A DNA stretch of 64,000 nt from Apium graveolens (taxonomy: Eukaryota; Streptophyta; Magnoliopsida; Apiales; Apiaceae), in assembly GCF_009905375.1 (NCBI RefSeq), contig NC_133647.1, positions 137,759,263 through 137,823,262 on the forward strand, given 5' to 3'. The position numbers and the translations under genes were made by a program. Each line of letters opens with the position of its first letter. Position 1 is the stretch's first letter. Of the stretch, positions 12,811-58,136 are shown piece by piece. The notes under the pieces were generated by a model. That model was not told the DNA's origin. It saw only the letters and a list, made by a program, of their open reading frames with translations, and did no database searches.

Positions 12811-12815
12811 ATAAC
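12811..12815. repeat. Left target-site duplication of copia C (ATAAC)
   Basis: ATAAC flanks the 5' LTR of C and recurs immediately after the 3' LTR at 25620-25624: a perfect 5-bp duplication. Confidence 0.95.
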
Positions 12816-12890
12816 TGTTAGGAATATATGTGCATTAGTTTGATGATATGTTTAACAAAACACTTAAGTAGAAATTCAGTGTCTGTAGCC

Positions 12891-13240
12891 TCAACGGATA
12901 AGACCACTTTGGCTATCCGTTGATGGTGTAGCTTTACTTAGAAATAAGTCTAGTGTTGTAGCATATTTCAGTCTCTGTATTTAAGATGTAATTCTTAGAA
13001 GTTGAGAGAAACTATGAGTCATGTTGACTACTAGAAGATATGCAGATAGGAAGGCCAATTGTAAATATTTCATGCCTTGTAATTTTGTATAAATGAAGTG
13101 GTATCAACGGATGACTTAAAGACCTTCAACGGATGAGAAGCTAAGCTTCAACGGATGTCTCTAAAGCTTCAACGGATAACATCCTTCAACGGATGAGTGC
13201 ATCAACGGATGAAAGCTTCAACGGATGTTCTGTTGATTAA
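12891..13240. repeat. TCAACGGAT motif cluster in the 5' LTR of C
   Basis: Nine exact 9-mers (eight as TCAACGGAT, one as ATCCGTTGA) plus a decayed copy ending in CCGTTGAT. Seven fall within about 130 bp (13093-13225), 12-25 bp apart. The identical array is in the 3' LTR (about 24681-25030). Confidence 0.95.
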
Positions 13241-13351
13241 CCGTTGATAAGTGGTAGTTGTACCTACAAACAGAGGCACGTGGGTGAACAGAGATAACTG
13301 AAATGTGGCAGCCTAATTTCAGGAACATCAGAAAAAGCAGCCGTTCTACTC

Positions 13352-13362
13352 TAGTATAAAGA
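13352..13362 (+). promoter_or_regulatory. Likely LTR TATA box of copia C
   Basis: TAGTATAAAGAG lies downstream of the motif cluster and about 480 bp before the LTR end, a reasonable place for the U3/R promoter of a Copia LTR. Inferred from sequence only. Confidence 0.5.
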
Positions 13363-13832
13363 GACATTAAGTCAACAAAGTACTGGAGTGAACTGGAGAA
13401 GAAACAAGTGGAGATCTTACTTTATTATATTATTATATCCTTGTCTTCACTTGTAAACTTGGTAATATATAAACCAAGTAGTAGCTAGTAATTAGATAAG
13501 AATTTTTCCAGAGCTGTTTAGAAAAATCTTGAGAGAAAAATTATCTAGTTTGTACTAGGATGCAGCTGTGATCAAATTCTTAGATCACATAATTTCTGAA
13601 ATACCATCTCTGGTGGAACAACAAATCCACCAGAAAAGTTTTTAAAGGTTTATTGTGTTCTTTACATTTGTGTTTGAATATATATCTGTCTGTATCAGCT
13701 TAAAGCAATTCACACACTTGTTCATCTTGAACACACAGTCTTTATAAACTGCTCAAAACTTGAAAAAGTTTTGAGATTTACATTCAACTCCCCTTCTGTA
13801 AATCTCATTGTTAGTTCTCTAGAAATAACAAT

Positions 13833-13844
13833 TGGTATCAGAGC
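13833..13844 (+). other. Primer-binding site of copia C (initiator-Met tRNA)
   Basis: TGGTATCAGAGC is complementary to the 3' end of plant initiator tRNA-Met, the standard primer of most plant Copia elements. It starts two bases after the LTR. Confidence 0.93.
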
Positions 13845-13891
13845 TGGCTCTTGACAAACAAAGAGTTTAAAGATCTTGGAATCTAACAAAG

Positions 13892-15997
13892 ATGAGTAAG
13901 AAGGATATTGGAGTAAAAATCCCAGTTCTTGACAGAGACAGTTATCACCACTGGAAGGTGAAAATGCACCTTCATCTACTCTCCCAAGATGAAGGTTATG
14001 TAAACTGTATTGAGAATGGTCCTCACATTCCCCACAAAGTAGCCACAGTTGCTACGGCCACAATTGCTGTTGGTCAATCCATTCCAAAACCTAGAGCAGA
14101 ATGGACAATGGAAGACACAGAAGAAGTCCACAAGGATAAGAAGGCTATGAACATTTTGTTTAATGGTCTTGACAAGGATATGTTTGATAATGTGATAAAT
14201 TGCTCAACTGCCAAAGAGGTTTGGGACACAGTTCAGCTGCTGTGTGAAGGTACAGAACAAGTAAAAGAGAACAAGATGCAGCTTCTCATTCAACAGTATG
14301 AGTATTTTCATTTTGAAGAAAATGAATCTTTAAATGACACATTTAACAGATTCCAAAAGCTGTTGAATGGATTGAAGCTGTATGGTAGAGTGTACCAGGT
14401 GAAGGATTCAAATCTTAAATTCTTAAGATCCTTGCCAAAGGAATGGAAACCCATGACTGTCTCCTTAAGAAACTCTCAGGATTATAAGGACTTCACTCTT
14501 GAAAGATTATATGGAATCTTGAAGACTTATGAACTAGAGTTGGAACAGGATGAGGTATTGGAGAAGGGGAGAAAGAAAGGAAGTTCAGTTGCATTTGTAG
14601 CTGAAAATGAGAGGGAATGCAGACAAGAAACTGTGAGATCTACATCAAACTCCAAAGATGGTACAAGATATCAGGAATCAAGCAAAGGAAAAGAGCAAGT
14701 TGCTGAGAATGAAGATGTGGAGTATGTCAACTTAGCTCTCATGTCTGATTCTGAGGAAAATGAAGTTAGTTCATCAAGCAATCAGGTAACAACTCAGGTA
14801 ATCACTACTGATGTAACACAACTTACTAAAGAAGAGTGTAATGATGCTTTTAATGACATGTCTACTGAATTGTATCATTTGCGTGTGTCTCTTAAATCTC
14901 TTGCTAAAGAAAATAGTAGGATTAAAGAGAACAATCTGTTTTTAAGTAATAGAAATGCTATGTTAGAAGATAAGTTGCTTGACCTAGAGAAAACCAAGCT
15001 GCATTGTATATCTGTTGAGAATGAACTAGCTGAATCTATTAAGAAAGTAGAAATACTTTCTAATCAATTAAAGAGAGAGCAAGAGGTGATTAAAGCCTGG
15101 AAAACATCTAGGGATGTTAGTGCTCAAATTGCCAAGGTCCAAGGAATTGAATCATTCTGTGAAACTGCCTGGGATAAAAACAAAAAGAAACTAGAATTAA
15201 TTGATGGGCTGTCAACGGATGTGGAATCAACGGATGATGAAGGTTATCCGTTGAAGGAAGAAAATGAGCATCCGTTGAAGGTTCCTCAATTAAAACAGGC
15301 AGATGTTTCTAATAGTGAAAATCTAAAGAAACTCAACAAAAAGTTTGGTTCAACTTCCAAGAACTTTGTTAAAGAAGAAGCAAGCACATCCAAAGATGTC
15401 AGTAAGGTGAATATAGGGCACATGACCTTAGAACAGTTAAATAATAGGCTCAAGATGGTTGAGGATAAAAAGGAAACTAAAAGAAAATCTAACAGAAATG
15501 GGAAGGTAGGTGTTAACAAACATAACAATTACACACCTGATAGGTATGCTCCTAGAAAAAGCTGTGTGCATTGTAGTAGTGTTAATCATCTATCTGCTAA
15601 TTGCAAATCTATTAAGAAAACCCCCATAATTGTACCCTCTTCCATGCCTAACATGTCTGCATCATCTCTACATGCTATGCCTACTATGTCTCAACAGAAT
15701 CCTTATGCACATTTTGCAAACATGCCATATTTTAACAATCCTTATCTTGCTGCATTTAGTATGCCTCAAATGCCATACAATATGCCTATGTGGAATAACA
15801 TGTATGCACAAACCATGCCTTATCATATTCCAAATGTGCTAAATGATTCTGTGACTAACCCTACACCTCAACCAACTACATCCAAGACCAAGGTTGACTC
15901 AAAGTTACCTAAGTCTAGAGATGCAGGAGGAATGAAGTCTAGGAGAAAGGCTAACAAGAATGGACCCAAGGAAACTTGGGTACCAAAATCAAATTGA
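13892..15997 (+). CDS. Gag of copia C (701 aa, intact frame)
   Basis: The Gag structural protein, which packages element RNA into particles. The frame is intact from the first ATG after the primer site. Residues 1-250 form the typical Copia Gag region, opening with a YHHWKVKM motif. Residues about 310-400 are rich in Leu, Glu and Lys and look coiled-coil. One perfect CCHC knuckle, CVHCSSVNHLSANC, spans Cys558-Cys571. A Met/Pro/Asn-rich tail follows. Four copies of the TCAACGGAT motif lie in the linker near codons 440-463 and encode Ser-Thr-Asp or Ser-Val-Glu-like residues. Seven hundred residues is large for Copia Gag but usual for Sireviruses. The frame ends in TGA, and the protease follows in another frame. 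Confidence 0.93.
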   Translation: MSKKDIGVKIPVLDRDSYHHWKVKMHLHLLSQDEGYVNCIENGPHIPHKVATVATATIAVGQSIPKPRAEWTMEDTEEVHKDKKAMNILFNGLDKDMFDNVINCSTAKEVWDTVQLLCEGTEQVKENKMQLLIQQYEYFHFEENESLNDTFNRFQKLLNGLKLYGRVYQVKDSNLKFLRSLPKEWKPMTVSLRNSQDYKDFTLERLYGILKTYELELEQDEVLEKGRKKGSSVAFVAENERECRQETVRSTSNSKDGTRYQESSKGKEQVAENEDVEYVNLALMSDSEENEVSSSSNQVTTQVITTDVTQLTKEECNDAFNDMSTELYHLRVSLKSLAKENSRIKENNLFLSNRNAMLEDKLLDLEKTKLHCISVENELAESIKKVEILSNQLKREQEVIKAWKTSRDVSAQIAKVQGIESFCETAWDKNKKKLELIDGLSTDVESTDDEGYPLKEENEHPLKVPQLKQADVSNSENLKKLNKKFGSTSKNFVKEEASTSKDVSKVNIGHMTLEQLNNRLKMVEDKKETKRKSNRNGKVGVNKHNNYTPDRYAPRKSCVHCSSVNHLSANCKSIKKTPIIVPSSMPNMSASSLHAMPTMSQQNPYAHFANMPYFNNPYLAAFSMPQMPYNMPMWNNMYAQTMPYHIPNVLNDSVTNPTPQPTTSKTKVDSKLPKSRDAGGMKSRRKANKNGPKETWVPKSN
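15212..15278. repeat. TCAACGGAT motif cluster inside gag of C
   Basis: Two forward and two complementary copies in 67 bp of coding sequence. This is a linker between the coiled-coil and the zinc knuckle. Confidence 0.93.
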
Positions 15998-16010
15998 TTG
16001 ATTTTATGGT

Positions 16011-19000
16011 GTGCAGGGAAATAGAAGAAATCTATGGTACTTGGACAGTGGCTGTTCAAGACACATGACAGGAGATTTCTCCCTGCTCACAGAGTTTAAG
16101 GAAAGAGCTGGCCCTAGCATAACCTTTGGAGATGACAGCAAAGGGTTTACTATGGGATATGGCTTGATTTCAACAAGGAATGTCATCATTGATGAAGTTG
16201 CATTAGTTGATGGTCTCAAACATAACTTACTGAGCATCAGTCAACTATGTGAAAAATGGGAATATAGTTTCCTTCAATTCTGAAGCCTGTGTTGTCACTA
16301 GTAAGAAAGACAACAAAGTGGTTCTAACTGGAGTTAGAAAAGGAAATGTGTACTTAGCTGACTTCAACTCTGCAAATGCAGAATCTATTACTTGTCTCTT
16401 CAGCAAAGCAAGTTCAGTTGAGAGTTGGCTATGGCACAAGAAGCTATCCCATTTGAATTTCAAGACAATGAATGATCTAGTCAAAAAGGACCTAGTAAGA
16501 GGAATTCCTCTTGTTGAATTCTCAAGGGATGGTTTGTGTGATGCTTGTCAGAAAGGCAAACAAAGGAAAGCATCATTCAAAAAGAAGCTTGAAACAACAA
16601 TTGATGAACCATTACAGCTGCTACATATGGATTTGTTTGGACCAGTCAATGTATTGTCAATTGCAAGAAAAAGATATTGCTTAGTGATTGTAGATGATTT
16701 CTCAAAGTTTTCATGGGTCTATTTTCTTGGATCAAAGAATGAAGCAAGTGAAATCATTATCAATCACATCAGGCAAGTCAATAATCATCCTGACCTGAAG
16801 GTTAGGAATATCAGGAGTGACAATGGAACTGAGTTCAAGAATTTATCAATGAGGTTGTTCTGTGAAGAAAATGGAATCATGCATGAGTTCTCAGCTCCAA
16901 GAACACCTCAGCAAAATGGGGTAGTTGAAAGAAAGAACAGATCTTTAATTGAGGCTGCCAGAACAATGCTTGAAGAATCAAAGTTACCAACATATTTCTG
17001 GGCTGAAGCTGTTAATTGTGCATGTTTCACTCAAAATATCTCTTTGATCAATCAAGCTAAAGGCATGACTCCTTATCAGTTGTTCAAGAGAAGAAAACCA
17101 ACTCTAAACTTTCTTCATGTCTTTGGATGTAAATGCTTTATACTAAGGAATCAATCTGACCATAAAGGGAAGTTTGATCCAAAGGCTGATGAAGGGATAT
17201 TTGTTGGTTATTCAGCTGGAAAATCTTATAGGGTCTACAATCTAAGAACCAACATTGTTATAGAATCTGTGCATGTTGTGTTTGATGATAAAAAGATTGA
17301 TGGACTAACAGATGAGGGACAATATGAGAGACTCAAATTTGACAACATTGAGATATATTGTGATGATAGTGAAGAGGAGACTGATGGAGATAACACTTCA
17401 AAAGGGATTCAAAACATGCCCTTGGATAATGCACAAAATACTGCATCTGTTGAAAGTCAGAATTCTGCATCCGTTGATAGAGGCAATGCAGTATCCGTTG
17501 AAAGACATGGTGTATCATCCGTTGAAGTACTAAATGAAGCATCCGTTGATCATAGTTTATCAACGGATAATCGATTTACATCATCAGTTGATAGAACTCC
17601 AAGTTCCCTGCAAAGGACCAACAACTCAGGGGGAGTTTCAACTAGTCAACACTCTGTCTCACATCATGACAATACTGAGGCCACCTCATCTAGAGCACAT
17701 CTTCCACTTCAAAGGAAATGGACCAAGAATCATCCCTTTGAACTGATCATTGGTGATGCATCATCTAAAGTGCAAACAAGAAGAGCTACTCAAGATGAAT
17801 GTCTGTATAGTAGTTTTCTATCTCAGGAGGAACCTAAGAAAGTGGAAGAAGCCTTATTGGATCCAGATTGGATATTAGCTATGCAGGAAGAGCTAAACCA
17901 ATTTGAGAGAAACCAAGTTTGGAAGCTGGTACCCAAACCAAAGAACAAGAGTCCTATTGACACAAAATGGGTATTCAGAAACAAGATGGATGAAAATGGC
18001 ATTATCATAAGGAATAAAGCCAGATTGGTTGCTAAAGGCTATTCTCAGCAAGAGGGAATAGATTTTGATGAGACATATGCTCCTGTTGCAAGACTTGAAG
18101 CCATCAGAATTTTTCTAGCCTATGTAGCTCATGCCAATTTCAAAGTCTATCAAATGGATGTCAAGAGTGCATTTCTAAATGGGAAATTAGAGGAAGAAGT
18201 CTATGTAAGTCAACCTCCAGGATTTGAAGATCCAAATTTTCCAGACTATGTATATTATCTGTTGAAAGCACTCTATGGACTGAAGCAAGTACCTAGAGCC
18301 TGGTATGAAACCTTATCAAAATTTCTTTTGGAGAATCACTTCACTAGAGGTACTGTTGATAAAACTCTCTTCTTTAGGAATGTTAATGGCTCTAGTATAC
18401 TTGTTCAAATTTATGTAGACGACATAATATTTGGTTCTAAAGATGATAAACTTTGTAAAAAGTTTGCTAAGCTAATGCAAAGTAATTATGAAATGAGCCT
18501 TATGGGAGAACTAACCTATTTTCTTGGTTTACAAATTAAACAAGTTAGTAATGGAATTTTCATTAGTCAAACTAAATATATTCATGATCTTTTAAAGAAG
18601 TTTGACTTAATGGAATGTTCATCTGCAAAAACTCCCATGGCCACTGCCACCAAACTTGAATTAAATAAGACTGAAAGGTCTGTGGACATTACAAGTTATA
18701 GAGGCATGGTTGGTTCACTTTTATATTTAACTGCTAGCAGACCAGATATAATGTTTGCTACATGTCTATGTGCTAGATTTCAAGCTGATCCTAGGGAGTC
18801 TCACTTAATAGCTATCAAAAGGATTTTCTGATATCTCAAGGGTACACCAAATTTAGGTATTTGGTATCCTAGAGAATCTGGCTTTGATCTAATTGGTTAT
18901 TCAGATGCAGACTATGCAGGTTGCAAAATAGACAGGAAAAGTACAACAGGCTCCTGCCAATTCCTGGGAAACAAGCTTGTATCATGGTTTAGCAAAAAGC

Positions 19001-19356
19001 AAAATTCAGTCTCTACTTCTACAGCTGAGGCTGAATATATTGCTGCTGGAAGTTGCTGCTCTCAAGTGTTATGGATGAGAAATCAACTCCTTGACTATGG
19101 ACTTCATGTTGATAGAATTCCTATCTTTTGTGACAACACAAGTGCCATAGCCATAACAGAGAATCCTGTACAGCACTCAAGAACCAAGCACATTGATATC
19201 AAGTACCACTTCATTAGGGAGCATGTCATGAATGGTATAGTGGAACTACATTTTGTTCCAAGTGAACAACAAATTGCAGACATATTTACCAAGCCACTTG
19301 ATGAATCAATATTCACAAGATTAGTAAGTGAGCTAGGTATGCTTAATTACTCTTAA
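16011..19356 (+). pseudogene. Pol of copia C: protease, integrase, RT, RNase H (two lesions)
   Basis: The protease opens with WYLDSGCSRHMTGD. The integrase has an H-H-C-C zinc site (HKKLSHL and CDACQKGK) and a DDE core at [15 protein letters not shown] and NGVVERKN. The RT has YVDD at about 18412-18423. The RNase H part keeps YSDADYAG and STAEAEYIA and ends near 19356. Two defects are visible. A single-base shift near 16270-16282 moves the protease frame to the integrase frame. A TGA at 18829-18831 lies where relatives have a basic residue (RIF[RK]YLKGT). Between integrase and RT lies a variable Ser/Val/Glu linker (17440-17590) built from the element's motif. Domain order PR-IN-RT-RH proves Ty1/Copia. 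Confidence 0.94.
17448..17590. repeat. TCAACGGAT motif cluster in the integrase-RT linker of C
   Basis: Four ATCCGTTGA copies, one TCAACGGAT and decayed versions within about 140 bp of coding DNA. Positions 17541-17568 form a hairpin with 10-bp arms and an 8-base loop. Confidence 0.93.
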
Positions 19357-19908
19357 AATTCATGTCCTTATTGCAATTTGAATTGAAGCCTGAAATATAT
19401 TAGTTGCTAGAACAAATTTGACTTTTAACAAAGTTTATACCATCAACGGATGTTTCCTATCTGTTGAAAGTCAAAATTGCTCTATCAACGGATATTCATT
19501 ATCCGTTGAAAGACAAATACATTTCTGGAATTTTTATCCGTCAACGGATAAAACTGAAGTACCTTTCAACGGAAGACAATTTGCCTTATCCGTTGAAATG
19601 TCACATCAGTTGATTCAGGTGTTTCACAGCCGTTGATTCTATTTTCTTAACCGTTAATACTCATACATACATCTGTATGTATTGGTTTTAAAGGTAGTTG
19701 TTAGAATACTTACAGTTTATTCTTAAACGGCTGAAATTCACTAACATATACTTATTGATTAATCTTTTACTAATTTTTTTTTTTTTTGAAAGCATATAAG
19801 CTCTTCTGATTTTTCATTTTTACTTTACGCTTTCTTAAAATTTCAAGCATTTACCATTTTCTCTCTGCAAAACCTTCAAGTTATTCTCTGCAATTTCTAC
19901 TCACAACA
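19357..19908 (+). other. Spacer between pol and ORF3 of C with motif hairpins and TATA-like box
   Basis: No coding evidence. Five exact and several decayed TCAACGGAT/ATCCGTTGA copies lie at 19441-19640; 19485-19509 is a perfect hairpin (10-bp arms, 5-base loop). A T-rich stretch and a TATA-like box follow, then a pyrimidine-rich leader to the ORF3 ATG. Confidence 0.85.
19794..19800 (+). promoter_or_regulatory. Possible internal promoter TATA box before ORF3 of C
   Basis: GCATATAAGC lies about 112 bp before the ORF3 ATG at 19909, after a T run and before a pyrimidine-rich leader. Elements D and E have a TATA-like box at nearly the same distance before their first post-pol ATG. Function is inferred. 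Confidence 0.5.
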
Positions 19909-22900
19909 ATGGCACCAGTCGTGAAAATTATGTCTCAATCTGGGTTCATCTATGAGAAGAACAATTTCATAGCTTTGGTAGAAAAGAATGAAGCCCATTC
20001 AGACTATCACAAAATGATGGACTTCATCAAAAACTGTAAACTTAGCTATGCAATGCTGGAAGCCCCAACGATTTACTGTGAAGTAGTTGAGGAGATTTGG
20101 ACAACTGCTGAGTTCAACTCCATAGATATGACTATCTCCTTCACTCTCAAAGGTAAAAATCACTGTATTAACTGTGATGATTTACAAGCATGTTTTAAAT
20201 TACCTGAGAACAATGCCATGACACCACACACTGATAATGATGTATCCAGCATGTTAGATTCCATAGGTTATTCTCTTAACTCTGCTAGTTTAGGGAGTAT
20301 TAGAAGAAAAGGCCTTAGGAAAGAATGGAGTTTTCTTGGGGATGCCTTTATAAAGGTTTTCTCTGGGAAAATTAGTAATTTTGATGCCATAACTTCATCT
20401 CTTGTTAATATGCTCTATATGCTTGTTTCTGATAGGTATTTTAACCTTAGCAACTATGTGATGCTAGAATTGGGTACTAGATTAGGTAACAAAGCTAATA
20501 GACCTAATAACATCTATTATGCTAGATTCTTTATGTTATTGGCTAACCATGTTGCTGAAGGTTTGGTCATAATCAATGAGAATAATAAACTCAAGTGTTG
20601 GGCACAAGAGAAAAGAGTTCTTGCAGATTTATTGAGAATGGATCTCAACAGCAGTGTGCCATTGGTATATTTACCAATCATGAATGCACCTCAGGTAGGT
20701 GAGGTAATTGCTTCTACAACTCCTACTTCTTCCAACCCCTCTATTTCTTTATCTTCTAGTGTGGCCATGAAATCTGTGACAATGCCCTAACAGATTTCTA
20801 CCAAGGTCACCAAAACTAAACTTTCAAAATCAAAGACAAAGAAAACCACCTCTGTTGTTTCTCAAAAGACAACAGTTGTAACACCAACCATTAACCCTGA
20901 GGGGAGTGAACAGGGTGTGAGTGGTGAGGGGAAGGGTGAACATCAAAGAAACCCCCAGGATAAGGAAGGAGAGTTAAGTGCTTCCCAAGCTAGCCAAGCC
21001 ACAGTTTCTCAAAAAGCTGTGGTGGTTGAAAAGGTATCTAGCACATCCCTAGTTGCATCCTCCCAAAAGGATGTTACTATTGAAAATAGTTCCCAACCAG
21101 GAACACAGAACAAACGAGGGAGGGACACTGAAGCCAAACACTCACCAACAAAAGCTTTTATTAGAAGAAAGAAGGCTAGAACCCAATCTTCTACACAGGG
21201 TGCACACACTGCACAGATACATCCATCTGTATCTATGCCTTCTCAAACTCAGTTTGATGTGGCTCCAATAAATGTGGAGTCACAGCCCCATTCTCTCACA
21301 ATAATCACACATCAATCACCAAACACTTCATCACCATCTCTGGATGTGGATATGTTATTCCCATCAATTCCTGATTCTCCCTCTTTACAACTCAGGGAGG
21401 AGCCCCACTCAAATACAGGTGATCATCATCTCTTAGATGATTTGTTGGATCACCCGCAAATTCTTTCAGATATAATTGAAGGATCTGTGTCACCACATCT
21501 CAAATCAATCTACACAGATTCAACAGTTATATCACTTTCAATTTCAACTTCTTTTCCTTCTTCAACGGATATCACTCATCCGTTGACAAGTGGTTGCTCT
21601 TCAACGGATAAGCTTAACAGCAGTTATCCGTTGATAACATCAGTTTCACCTTCAACGGATATTCCACATCCGTTGATAGTCTCTCCACACATAACTGAAT
21701 CAATTCCAAGTGTAGAAGACATGAATACTGTGCAATCACTCTTAGGATTGAGGGAAGGGAGTGAAAATTTGAGTGAGAGGCTGGGTTGCTCCCAGGCAAA
21801 AGGAGAGATTGAGAGCTAAAAAATGCATGTTATTTCTTCCAGCATGGCAAAAGTAAGTGAGAGGAGTACCACCTTAGTAGGTGAAGGTGAGGGAGTGAGT
21901 TGTGTGAGCCAGGGGGAGCCCCTGATGCAAGAAAATAGAGAAAAAGAGAGAAAGGCAGGTACAGTAGATATAAGGGTGGAACCAGCCATTGCTAGTGAGT
22001 CAATGATTGTGGATGATGCTGAAAAGGAAAGACAATTTTAGCAACATTACAAAGCTGTAATTGATAACATTTCCTTGGATGCTGACACTTTTACTCATCC
22101 TGTGTCAGCCTATCAAATGTTGGCTGCTCAGGGAAATGAGGAGGCAGAAAAGACACTACATCTAGTACACACAACAGAATCTCTTCAAAGGGATAAAGCT
22201 GCTATTAACAAGATGCCTTCTATAGCTGGTGAGCCATCTGAGGAATTTGGAGTAAATTCTGATGATGATGACTCTGTTTCTTTTGATGGAAGCATGAACT
22301 TAGGGGGAGATGAAGGCCCTAGTTCAATTCCAAATCTACCTGAATGGGCTTTGACAAAGGAGTATAGATCAGGGGAATTCAATGTCTCCTTAGTCAAACA
22401 AATCAACACTATTCAACAGGCCATTCAGAACACTTCACATGCAAGTATCAAGGCTATCCTTCAAGCTCACCTGGACTCACTGCATCTCATGAAGTTGCAG
22501 CAAGTAAAGCAGAATCTGAGTATGGATGATCTCAGGAAGGATATTACTGACTTGAAATCCTACAGTTCTGAAAAATTGGATTCAGTCATGCCCTATGGTA
22601 CATTGCAGGACTTGGTTTTGAGATTGAAAAAGGAATCAGTTACTGAGAAAAGGCTGGCCAAGTTGGAAGACAGAGTTCAAGTTATTGAAGATTCTGTGGC
22701 CACCATTCTTCACAACCAACAATCTCAAACCAGTCTCCTAATGCAGCTGGCAAAAGCACAAGGCTTGACCCCTCTTCTTGATGATAACAAAAAGGGGGAG
22801 AGTAAAAGGGAAGGGGAAGGAGAGCCATCTACAAAAATCAAAATATCTAAAGTGCTAGTTCCTGCCATCACTACTTCTCCAATCATTCAAATCAAAGGAA

Positions 22901-24456
22901 AGCCTGATGGAATTGATTTGATTCAGCTAGCAGCAGCTGAAATTCAAGTGAAAGAGCAAAGGAGGAGAATTGATGAAAGGTTGCAACTGTTGTTTGGCTC
23001 TACACAAGATAAATCAACATCTGTGAAATATAGCACAAAGATTGAATCAATCAACATGGAGCTCAAGCCAGTAGGGAGACATAAGGATGGAGAAGCTTCT
23101 TCCAAAGAACTACAAGCTATAATTCTCAAGCCCAATAAAAGATCCAACAAGGACTCTACAAAGAATCCTTTAAAAGAAGTGGACTTTCCTCCTCCAAAAG
23201 CTGATGAGAACAAGCTTTTAGGTAGGAGTATTGCTTATCTCAAAGAGACCATGGATGAGGCTGTAAGGAGAAATAGGGCTATTATCTCTAGAGAGGGAAA
23301 GAGCATATGTGTGATGCAAGGACATCCCAAATTCTCAATAGCCAAGAAGGAAGAAGTCAAGCAACTAAAGGCTGACAAAAGAGCACAAGCAAAGCTTGAA
23401 CAACAGCTAAAGTCAAGTCAAGTTGAAGAAGAGAAAGGAATTGAAGTCAGGGGTGAAGACAAGATTGCAAACCTAGATGAGGTTTTTGGGAGTATATTTG
23501 GTGAGAGTATGGAAGAAAGAGAGGAATGGCAGAAGGGAAACAGAAGAAAGGCCAAGGCACATAGAAGGAGTGAAGATAATACTGAAGTAACCAAATCTAT
23601 ATCTAAACCACTACCTTCCATACCTGAACCTCTTGTTGCTAATCCCACTATAAACATCCATGGTGAACCAATCATTCCAAAAGAGGAACCTATTGATTGG
23701 GACACCATCAAATTGCCTACCTTTCTAACCACTCTTCCACTACCAAAGAAACAGAAAAGAAAACCCAAATCTACACCTCCCATAACCTCTAAGAAATTCA
23801 CTCAAAAACAAAAGCCTAAGCCTAAGCCATCCATTTCTAAAGATGATTATGTTCACATCTGTGACATAAAAGAAATTTCAGACATTGAACTCTATCTGGA
23901 TGAGCTGGAGGATGTAAGAGGAATAGCTGCTTACAGACAGCTACCAGAGAGATTAGTGTTCAGATACAAAGGAGCTGGGGAAAGAACATGGCCTCTCCAC
24001 AGGATTCTGAATGAAGGCTACTCTACCTTGATTAGAGTCTTTTCAGCTATACAAAAGGATTCTGGCTTTACCAGAACTGCCAAGACTGAAATTCTCAACA
24101 AGATTGCCAATATAAGGAAAACTTGGAGGGAGCCCAATGCTTTACCCAGGACTTTACTCATTCAAGAAAGGGGAATTACAATTCACAAATCACCTCATTG
24201 GTTGATGGAATTTAGAGATGATAAAGGAGTCAGAAGATTTTTCAGACTTGAAGACCAACTCAAGATTGCCAGAAATTAAACTCTCAAGGAAATGCAATCT
24301 AAGTTGGATATCAGTGTTGAAGATGAAGCTGAATTCTTCAGACAACTCCAACTCCAAATTGAGGAAAATGACAAAGGGCTAGGAAAGAAAACCAGGGAAC
24401 AAAGAAGAAAAAGATGATTTGCTCAGGCTAAAGGAGTATCCTTGGAAATACTGTAA
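19909..24456 (+). pseudogene. ORF3 of copia C: about 1515-codon accessory frame with five in-frame stops
   Basis: One reading frame, without any shift, spans 4548 bp downstream of pol. It is cut only by stops at 20788 (TAA), 21817 (TAA), 22039 (TAG), 24277 (TAA) and 24415 (TGA). The N-terminal 260 residues form a globular region with LRKEWSFLGDAF, homologous to the fragment at 41868-42555 (LRREWSFLFDSI). It resembles the plant 'putative transposon protein' type of domain, though this needs a profile search. A long Ser/Thr/Pro/Lys-rich linker follows, holding six TCAACGGAT motifs (21562-21676). Then come a helical, probably coiled-coil region (about 22330-22800), charged stretches, and a compact C-terminal region (about 23840-24280). 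No signal peptide or membrane segment is visible, which argues against an envelope protein. Function is unknown. Confidence 0.8.
21562..21676. repeat. Three successive motif hairpins inside ORF3 of C
   Basis: TCAACGGAT and ATCCGTTGA alternate as three inverted pairs: 21562-21586 (9-bp arms, 7-base loop), 21601-21634 (10-bp arms, 14-base loop) and 21652-21676 (9-bp arms, 7-base loop). Confidence 0.93.
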
Positions 24457-24591
24457 ATCTTCAATTTCCTCCTAGTACATACATTTTTGCAGCATTTTCA
24501 AATTTCTACTTAGTTTCAATTCATATATTTGTTAAGTGTTTTGTTATCATCAAGTTAACCCTGAATTTATGCCTACAATTCTTATAGACAT

Positions 24592-24605
24592 AAATAGGGG
24601 GAGAT
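24592..24605 (+). other. Polypurine tract of copia C
   Basis: AATAGGGGGAGAT directly precedes the 3' LTR. The GGGGGAGAT form is typical of Sirevirus-type Copia elements. Confidence 0.9.
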
Positions 24606-25619
24606 TGTTAGGAATATATGTGCATTAGTTTGATGATATGTTTAACAAAACACTTAAGTAGAAATTCAGTGTCTGTAGCCTCAACGGATAAGACCATTTT
24701 GGCTATCCGTTGATGGTGTAGCTTTACTTAGAAATAAGTCTAGTGTTGTAGCATATTTCAGTCTCTGTATTTAAGATGTAATTCTTAGAAGTTGAGAGAA
24801 ACTATGAGTCATGTTGACTACTAGAAGATATGCAGATAGGAAGGCCAATTGTAAATATTTCATGCCTTGTAATTTTGTATAAATGAAGTGGTATCAACGG
24901 ATGACTTAAAGACCTTCAACGGATGAGAAGCTAAGCTTCAACGGATGTCTCTAAAGCTTCAACGGATAACATCCTTCAACGGATGAGTGCATCAACGGAT
25001 GAAAGCTTCAACGGATGTTCTGTTGATTAACCGTTGATAAGTGGTAGTTGTACCTACAAACAGAGGCACGTGGGTGAACAGAGATAACTGAAATGTGGCA
25101 GCCTAATTTCAGGAACATCAGAAAAAGCAGCCGTTCTACTCTAGTATAAAGAGACATTAAGTCAACAAAGTACTGGAGTGAACTGGAGAAGAAACAAGTG
25201 GAGATCTTACTTTATTATATTATTATATCCTTGTCTTCACTTGTAAACTTGGTAATATATAAACCAAGTAGTAGCTAGTAATTAGATAAGAATTTTTCCA
25301 GAGCTGTTTAGAAAAATCTTGAGAGAAAAATTATCTAGTTTGTACTAGGATGCAGCTGTGATCAAATTCTTAGATCACAGAATTTCTGAAATACCATCTC
25401 TGGTGGAACAACAAATCCACCAGAAAAGTTTTTAAAGGTTTATTGTGTTCTTTACATTTGTGTTTGAATATATATATGTCTGTATCAGCTTAAAGCAATT
25501 CACACACTTGTTCATCTTGAACACACAGTCTTTATAAACTACTCAAAACTTGAAAAAGTTTTGAGATTTACATTCAACCCCCTTCTGTAAATCTCATTGT
25601 TAGTTCTCTAGAAATAACA
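24606..25619 (+). repeat. 3' LTR of copia C, 1014 bp
   Basis: Near-identical to 12816-13830: four substitutions and one single-base length difference seen by eye. It includes the same nine-copy motif cluster. Confidence 0.96.
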
Positions 25620-25624
25620 ATAAC
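25620..25624. repeat. Right target-site duplication of copia C (ATAAC)
   Basis: Exact copy of 12811-12815. Confidence 0.95.
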
Positions 25625-56908: not shown

Positions 56909-58096
56909 TTAGTGTTCTTGCAGCTGGGCAGAAGGGAGCATAGGCCATCCAATAAGTTGTGGTGAGCCCGGTGGGCTTGAATGTTGGCTAGGAGAGAAGA
57001 GGCTCAATTCCACGAATGTTCCTGAAGCTTGATCTTTATCCATAGTGCGGAAGGAAATGGAACCACGCTTAGCTGAGGTACCAGAGTTTCTCCCTGCACT
57101 AATTTCTTCAAGAGAGCTTTGGTTAGTAATCAGTGAAACAGTATCATGTTGATCATCACCACTCCTAGCCTCCATGTCTTGTACATTCCTCAAAGTTAAT
57201 GAATCAGCAATTGGAAGGTAAACCAATATGCAAACTCCCAGACTAGCACAACATAAAAGGGAGAGAAACGCTAAAAAAGAAAGGAGCTCAAACCAAACAT
57301 TTTCGGGCTTTGACAGTACAGATAAACCAAGCAAGATGATCCTAAAAGTAACAAAACTAGAGACGGACAATATTAAAGTGTATACTCTTTTATGCAATCC
57401 TTTATTGATGACCAAATACAAGATCCGCCTACCGAGCCAGAACATGTAGGTAGATAGGACAGTGTCAAATATACCGAGAAATATGGTACTCACTAAAGGA
57501 TAAGTGCATAGAGCAACGTCAGTGTCGTTCTTCCTCATAGATGGTGCGACTGTGTTTGTGAAATAATGTGGCAACTGGTGCAGATAACTCCCACGCTTGT
57601 TCAGCTTTGGTCCGACTATAACCACCATCAGCTGCAGAACAAATATGGGGAAGCAATACAGAACAATATAACCCGCAGTTTTGCAATTCCATTGGTGTCT
57701 TAGAGCCCCTGACTCTGTATTCTGTAATGACCCGCGAAGAAGGAACACGAGTGTTAGCAATAAGCAAGGTTCTGCAAACCCTAGGTTTGAAACAATGTAG
57801 CCTTTGCAAATATTTCTCTGCCATTCAAAGTTAACATTCAGTATTCTACCTTCACTCCTCAAGAGGTTCAAACGTATAATCTCACCAACTCCCCACCAAA
57901 TTGCAAGTAAAATGAATATAATTCGAATAATCCAAGGCCCATTAAAATATCTAAGCCGAACAAAAACCTGCCTACGAACGCGAGTACGAAAATAAACGGA
58001 GTACACGATGCAAAATAATCCGAAGACAACAAAAAGTGCAACTAAACAAACTGTCACCACGCCGAGTGCATCAGCATCAAATCTCTTCTGGGGCAT
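56909..58096 (-). CDS. Seven-transmembrane plant membrane protein (395 aa), family not firmly recognised
   Basis: An uninterrupted minus-strand frame from ATG at 58096 to TAA at 56909. The upstream in-frame GTG at 58108 is not a plausible plant start, and no earlier in-frame ATG occurs before a stop. Hydrophobic segments lie at about residues 11-36, 55-74, 105-120, 140-162, 200-221, 238-260 and 270-295, giving seven likely helices. A Ser-rich, polar tail of about 95 residues follows and is probably cytosolic. The layout recalls plant seven-helix proteins proposed as candidate G-protein-coupled receptors, but no signature was confirmed. Codon use and the open frame look like a real host gene. 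It lies 1.7 kb upstream of cytochrome c in the same direction. Confidence 0.85.
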   Translation of the reverse strand: MPQKRFDADALGVVTVCLVALFVVFGLFCIVYSVYFRTRVRRQVFVRLRYFNGPWIIRIIFILLAIWWGVGEIIRLNLLRSEGRILNVNFEWQRNICKGYIVSNLGFAEPCLLLTLVFLLRGSLQNTESGALRHQWNCKTAGYIVLYCFPIFVLQLMVVIVGPKLNKRGSYLHQLPHYFTNTVAPSMRKNDTDVALCTYPLVSTIFLGIFDTVLSTYMFWLGRRILYLVINKGLHKRVYTLILSVSSFVTFRIILLGLSVLSKPENVWFELLSFLAFLSLLCCASLGVCILVYLPIADSLTLRNVQDMEARSGDDQHDTVSLITNQSSLEEISAGRNSGTSAKRGSISFRTMDKDQASGTFVELSLFSPSQHSSPPGSPQLIGWPMLPSAQLQEH

Positions 58097-58136
58097 TACC
58101 CAAAACACAGATTCCGCGCATGCTCTCAGCCAGCAT
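58077..58136 (-). other. Upstream ORF overlapping the start of the seven-helix gene
   Basis: The minus strand has an ATG at 58136 opening a 19-codon frame (MLAESMRGICVLGNAPEEI) that ends in TGA at 58077. It overlaps the main ATG in another frame. If the transcript includes it, it would be expected to lower translation of the main protein. Confidence 0.5.

Follow-up and report, generated by a model that had tools for sequence, protein, structure and literature searches.

Sireviruses carry short repeated sequences known as RM boxes, which Bousios et al. (2010, PMC2829016) described as short palindromes, nearly always with a CGG–CCG core, present in 8 to 32 copies per element. In that account the boxes cluster in the long terminal repeat (LTR) upstream of the TATA box and, when an ENV gene is present, upstream of ENV; they are reported from the LTRs, from the linker domain and from the start of ENV, their sequences vary between elements, and the authors were unable to point to one shared binding site for a single factor. 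In maize Sireviruses, palindromic LTR motifs are reported to be clustered and inverted, to have strong predicted RNA structure and to be linked to small RNAs (Bousios 2016, as cited in PMC10760457). A nine-base motif is also found at high density in the transposon VANDAL21: YAGTATTAY, the family-specific target of VANC21, described as evolving fast and together (Hosaka et al. 2017, PMC5735166). Here we analyse a 64,000-nucleotide stretch of Apium graveolens DNA (NC_133647.1, positions 137,759,263 to 137,823,262 of the forward strand; hereafter the window), in which a 12.8-kb LTR retrotransposon (Ty1/copia, Sirevirus, ENV-containing; 12816–25619, plus strand) carries the 9-mer TCAACGGAT in its LTRs, its genes and its non-coding spacer. 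We think it probable that these 9-mers serve as recognition sites for a sequence-specific factor that would read the element as DNA, in either orientation and over its whole length.

Counted on both strands, exact copies of TCAACGGAT number 38 in the window, all of them between 12891 and 25016, against a window-wide expectation of 0.15 and a maximum of 2 in 100 shuffles. The element alone holds 25 forward and 13 reverse copies, and the other 51 kb of the window hold none. An earlier note on this DNA had counted 38 copies by eye and had divided them into nine per LTR, four in gag, five in the linker between integrase and reverse transcriptase (RT), five in the spacer behind pol and six in ORF3; our count reproduces both the sum and the breakdown. 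The same note had proposed counting the motif in the shuffled element, where we find a mean of 0.01 against the 38 observed, and had named an equal density in unrelated DNA as the outcome that would speak against it; the other 51 kb of the window show no such density.

In the 5' LTR (12816–13830) the nine copies comprise an inverted pair at 12891 (+) and 12915 (-) and a seven-copy direct array at 13104–13226. The gag cluster (15212–15278; + + - -) encodes STD, STD, YPL and HPL; the linker cluster (17469–17568; - - - - +) has its first four copies starting 24 bases apart; the spacer cluster (19443–19596; + + - + -) is non-coding; and in the ORF3 cluster (21562–21676; + - + - + -) STD alternates with [HY]PL. 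The clusters are spaced 2.0–2.3 kb apart with a last gap of 3.3 kb (evenness P 0.004 over 13160–24950, the centres having been chosen afterwards). Downstream of the LTR promoter region, taking a presumed transcription start, 17 copies are sense and 12 antisense. Three peptides are encoded by the motif, namely STD, SV[ED] and [YH]PL: sense copies give STD in all three genes, and antisense copies give SV[ED] in pol but [YH]PL in the other two genes. The earlier note was thus right that Ser-Thr-Asp and Ser-Val-Glu are both encoded but missed the third reading, Tyr/His-Pro-Leu, of the reverse copies in gag and ORF3. The element also contains 11 sites with one mismatch, in 6 of which a CpG is altered (TCAACAGAT four times, TCAACTGAT twice).

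The host genome contains two forms of the motif, an A-type (TCAACGGAT) and a G-type (TCGACGGAT), which differ at motif position 3. We searched the genome (3.33 Gb) for inverted pairs with a 7-base gap, using the reversed pattern as control and treating all counts as lower bounds. This count among other genomic copies, which the earlier note had also suggested, returned at least 22187 A-type pairs and at least 1622 G-type pairs, with no hit for either reversed control; mixed A/G pairs numbered at least 1619 (817 + 802), against about 4398 expected with independent arms. We fetched 17 A-type and 16 G-type loci, taken from the places listed first on contig 1. These were chosen through an inverted pair in the spacer or ORF3, so that motif type and conservation in those two regions are partly ascertained; gag and the linker are free of this effect. 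All 17 of the A-type places fetched match the element at least partly; one fetched locus, L023, was aligned over 1085 bases only. Over the aligned parts, identity to the window is 84–99% for the A loci and 70–77% for the G loci, and a tree of the RT segment, built from the 26 sequences covering it, parts 16 A from 10 G sequences at its midpoint root.

Of 302 motif sites in the 17 A loci, 300 have A at position 3, and seven further A-type LTR stretches (four showing the junction between polypurine tract (PPT) and LTR, three called LTR by their array) have A in 66 of 67. In the 16 G loci the base is G at 15 of 15 sites in gag, 29 of 36 in the linker, 48 of 50 in the spacer, 60 of 64 in ORF3 and 34 of 50 in the LTR. 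Of the 15 aligned coding sites in gag, linker and ORF3, 14 have a different base 3 in the two types, 13 of them with the core intact, and the shared base change spans both orientations and three reading offsets. In gag and linker together, position 3 is A 120 times and G never in the A group, as against 7 A and 44 G in the G group (Fisher P 7e-34, which overstates the number of independent events because the copies are related). Motif copies that occur in both orientations, stay nearly uniform over 12 kb and, amid unique flanks, share a single base change argue for a trans-acting reader. Such a reader, with a group-specific preference, would impose a uniform base across the clusters; slippage or template switching would move repeats but should not convert single 9-mers.

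The motif is kept against change at the level of nucleic acid, synonymous sites included. The earlier note had suggested selection or spread at the level of nucleic acid, not of a peptide; selection at that level draws support from third-position divergence, from the shared one-base change and from the retention of CpG. In particular, when motif and flanking codons are compared as that note had proposed (gag, linker and ORF3 pooled, motif position 3 excluded), third codon positions diverge less in the motif than in the flank between the A and G clades (0.127 and 0.542; 0 of 10000 permutations), between A subgroups (0.059 and 0.197; P 0.0009) and, at P 0.06, within A1 (0.039 and 0.090). The motif served as the anchor of the segment alignments, and its apparent divergence may be lowered as a result. 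Between A and G, pooled motif divergence is below that of the flank at all three codon positions. For A1 against G, the eight other motif positions and the flank diverge by 0.170 and 0.485 in gag, 0.272 and 0.505 in the linker and 0.077 and 0.413 in ORF3; in the spacer, with a single alignable G sequence, the values are 0.304 and 0.414. The order is reversed at linker third positions within A1 (motif 0.100, flank 0.045).

In the 10.8-kb internal region, 20 of the 34 CpGs lie inside the motif (CpG observed/expected (o/e) 0.09 for the region), as do 9 of the 12 CpGs of the 5' LTR. The o/e ratio of neighbouring Sirevirus-like stretches is 0.15–0.21 and that of the remaining stretches 0.67–0.96. 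The internal region (13830–24605), whose CpG o/e falls to 0.04 once the motifs are removed, has GpC near normal at 0.93; its CpG depletion is extreme for a young element.

The motif can also be recovered from proteins. We scored all 131072 9-mer pairs by how well they explain the peptides of homologs, with regions cut by pattern, and TCAACGGAT ranked first of 131072 from 33 of 53 gag homologs and fifth from nine linkers. From the 21 gag regions outside named Apium (two mis-cut to few residues; P0124 and P0130 resembling Apium) it came third by score, and first if both orientations must contribute. It ranked 12 in 11 Heracleum gag regions and 581 in three Daucus regions, and similar peptide readings of the motif recur among Apium, Heracleum and Daucus gag homologs. 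The 12 Apium gag regions alone put TCGACGGAT first and TCAACGGAT at rank 91, because HPL reads HPS in part of the set with STD unchanged; the sister motif was in this way deduced from proteins alone, before the genome search. One gag relative, P0155, is labelled Rhizophagus irregularis DAOM 197198 and gives the impression of plant DNA entered under a fungal name; this strain is often grown on carrot roots.

Neighbouring Sirevirus-like stretches carry a different scattered word. AARKNCTGAT or its complement ATCAGNMYTT occurs 30, 14 and 11 times at 32–42.5, 42.5–50 and 61–64 kb, where 0.96, 0.61 and 0.34 copies are expected and where TCAACGGAT has none; it is absent from three other stretches and occurs 4 times in the 12816–25619 element against 1.17 expected. 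This enrichment test is not independent, because the pattern was drawn up from the same sequence. In the element at 32–42.5 kb (minus strand) the word lies in the gag, linker, post-pol and presumed LTR regions; one strand carries 23 of its 30 copies, and the three in the presumed LTR (41.7 kb) have the opposite orientation. Because this neighbour spreads its own motif over the same kinds of region, the group as a whole seems to scatter a motif, the word itself being specific to the lineage. Back-inference of AARKNCTGAT from 14 of 70 linkers, those rich in N[SPT]D, failed, with the best target at rank 86 of 131072. A 399-amino-acid (aa) open reading frame (ORF) at 56909–58108 (minus strand) has several hydrophobic stretches and is not an obvious mobile-element gene.

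Among the roles that the earlier note had suggested, a binding site fits best, and a single-orientation RNA packaging signal fits poorly because both orientations lie beyond the LTR promoter region. The main rival to a protein reader is base pairing, in which sense and antisense copies would pair within or between clusters in RNA (hairpins, genome folding or dimerisation), so that copies match and change together. It holds this place because the gag, spacer and ORF3 clusters are predicted to fold strongly (z -6.23, -6.24 and -6.67), though the seven-copy LTR array folds like shuffles (z -0.30). The inverted pair 12891/12915 also folds (z -3.75), the presumed transcript holds both the 17 sense and the 12 antisense copies, the G-type change leaves the arms complementary, and a long-range form of pairing would explain the element-wide uniformity too. 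However, the linker fold is modest (z -2.32), the array copies and four of the linker copies are direct repeats, local hairpins alone need not force the same letters in separate hairpins, and the motif of the neighbouring elements has one free position and several two-fold ones, unlike strict pairing. On this evidence we regard pairing as a doubtful account of the motif. Neutral spread of a short, functionless repeat by replication slippage or template switching would accommodate the linker unit number, which varies among homologs (5 and 7 SV[ED] in P0001 and P0002, for example), and the differing copy numbers of LTR arrays; but the 9-mer is kept amid unique flanks, diverges less than the flank at every codon position between groups when regions are pooled, and retains its CpG, and this explanation, already disfavoured, appears very improbable.

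The motif might alternatively be a host transcription factor site, such as the mitosis-specific activator (MSA) element, which is bound by MYB3R through the core AACGG in either orientation (PMC10905365); it would then be an LTR enhancer that is present internally too. The A-type motif shares the AACGG core, MSA sites are described as varying in number and orientation (PMC10905365), the array lies upstream of the LTR TATAAA at 13355, and RM boxes have been proposed as regulatory (PMC2829016). The idea is weakened because the G-type reads GACGG and so lacks the core; moreover, the neighbouring elements carry an unrelated motif, and a promoter does not need coding copies 2 to 8 kb downstream. 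We rate it as distinctly unlikely. A further account combines a methylation purge with a tolerant reader: from an ancestral [CT]CGACGGAT, deamination would have taken the first CpG in the A group, with only the core CNACGGAT selected. A-type copies indeed lack the first CpG and retain that of the core, the internal CpG o/e is low (0.09), at position 1 the G loci show either T or C and the A loci T at 301 of their 302 sites, genome pairs with one CpG-decayed arm number at least 546 and at least 534, and in three Daucus gag regions one finds either both readings or PS. Among 11 Heracleum gag regions, on the other hand, five read [HY]PL, which fits the A-type, none [HY]PS and six HLL, HML or HSL, so that the A-type is perhaps old; an A count of 300 in 302 exceeds the purity to be expected from decay alone; and the purge still requires a reader. 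It seems to us a tentative possibility at most.

Several observations weigh against a reader that enforces one base along the whole element. At 15212 the G lies within a broken core in 5 of 5 G-type sequences, and at 17560 there is no motif in 9 of 9 G-type sequences. Uniformity is not absolute: L036, L039 and L040 mix A and G types among their clusters (the three are possible intermediates), and A-type copies within G loci are commonest at LTR sites (15 of 50). If the reader accepts either base, CpG decay could have turned the G-type into the A-type. The sample covers one main clade boundary, with many sites and few events, and outgroup gag readings are mixed. Within A2 gag the motif is barely better kept than the flank (0.077 and 0.105), and linker second codon positions are nearly equal between A and G (0.395 motif, 0.421 flank). 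Nor did the ORF3 pieces yield a reader: Pfam, at its curated cut-off, assigns them no domain, and two AlphaFold models were unusable (mean predicted local distance difference test scores 41.2 and 32.9). In a sequence search of the PDB, the 734-aa piece of ORF3 found no match and the 293-aa piece a single weak one (E 0.034).

If a sequence-specific reader does recognise the 9-mers, it might be encoded by the element itself, as ORF3 or Gag, and keep the element's chromatin open as VANC does for VANDAL transposons; this is a guess by analogy, which we hold to be possible though clearly the less probable case. With a cluster roughly every 2 kb, a factor of local action could reach the full 12.8 kb, and the need of such a factor for clusters at this spacing would, we propose, account for motif sites inside genes. 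More speculatively still, and unlikely as we judge it, the motif could be a self-address code, in which an element protein would recognise a clade-specific 9-bp word across the element, genes included, and protect or activate only its own kind. Protein and word would then change together, splitting the family into separately addressed clades, and the code, if real, would give retrotransposons an equivalent of the VANC system.

The element is flanked by the target site duplication ATAAC (12811–12815 and 25620–25624, read from the sequence), and its features all lie on the plus strand. The 5' LTR is followed by a primer binding site, TGGTATCAGAGC (13833–13844), a gag ORF of 701 aa with Retrotran_gag_2 (13892–15997) and a pol piece with pre-integrase, integrase and RT (16249–18831), in a frame different from that of gag and with a stop at 18831. 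ORF3, in the envelope-like position (19909–24279), consists of pieces at 19909–20790, 20917–21819 and 22075–24279 in one frame with stops between them; protein relatives were found for the third piece. The PPT, AGGGGGAG plus AT (24596–24605), adjoins the 3' LTR (24606–25619; nine motif copies). The two LTRs, each about 1 kb, have diverged by 4 substitutions and 1 indel, which marks the insertion as young; the pol stop and the splitting of ORF3 indicate that this copy is probably not autonomous. Its nearest named protein relatives are from Apium graveolens. As in the Sirevirus definition of PMC2829016, AGGGGGAG, AT and the TG of the 3' LTR follow one another (24596–24607), and the layout conforms as well, with a large gag, integrase before RT, an optional ORF in the ENV position and a length (12.8 kb) within 8–14 kb. 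Extra PPT octamers (AGGGGGAG) are found at 17628, 21911, 22302 and 22793. Sireviruses are described as having on average 4 extra PPTs per linker, with 83% of extra PPTs at most 0.5 kb from the 3' LTR (PMC2829016); here none lies so near, the closest (22793) being about 1.8 kb upstream, inside ORF3.

Two groups in one plant genome that carry TCAACGGAT or TCGACGGAT at mostly the same sites are matched baits for finding the reader, and a retrotransposon coding sequence constrained at the DNA or RNA level bears on how codon conservation in such elements is read. Titles and abstract openings in the literature yielded no description of RM boxes in coding regions, and a search for the bare 9-mer gave unrelated papers among the matches listed. 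Three IMG/VR contigs match one inverted pair, with one motif per strand only, and were set aside as chance; pol relatives were unconfirmed in viral_contigs (85 pattern stretches) and genome_contigs (73).

Like RM boxes, the motif has at least 8 copies, is found in the LTR and upstream of ENV and has a CGG core. Unlike them, TCAACGGAT is non-palindromic, with some copies forming inverted pairs and others direct arrays; it lies also in gag, the integrase–RT linker and mid-ORF3; and most of its sites differ between the groups by one and the same base. Because a palindromic unit and a restricted location, both stated features of RM boxes, are lacking, we would file the motif as a variant of the Sirevirus RM boxes, a link that the earlier note had not drawn. 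The maize Sirevirus motifs differ in being described for the LTR cis-region. With the VANC21 target the motif shares a nine-base, family-specific sequence at high density; VANDAL21, as described, is another kind of transposable element, its motif is mostly non-coding and in one orientation, and it has an established, experimentally tested reader protein. Of these systems, the RM box appears nearest by descent and the VANC motif nearest in logic.

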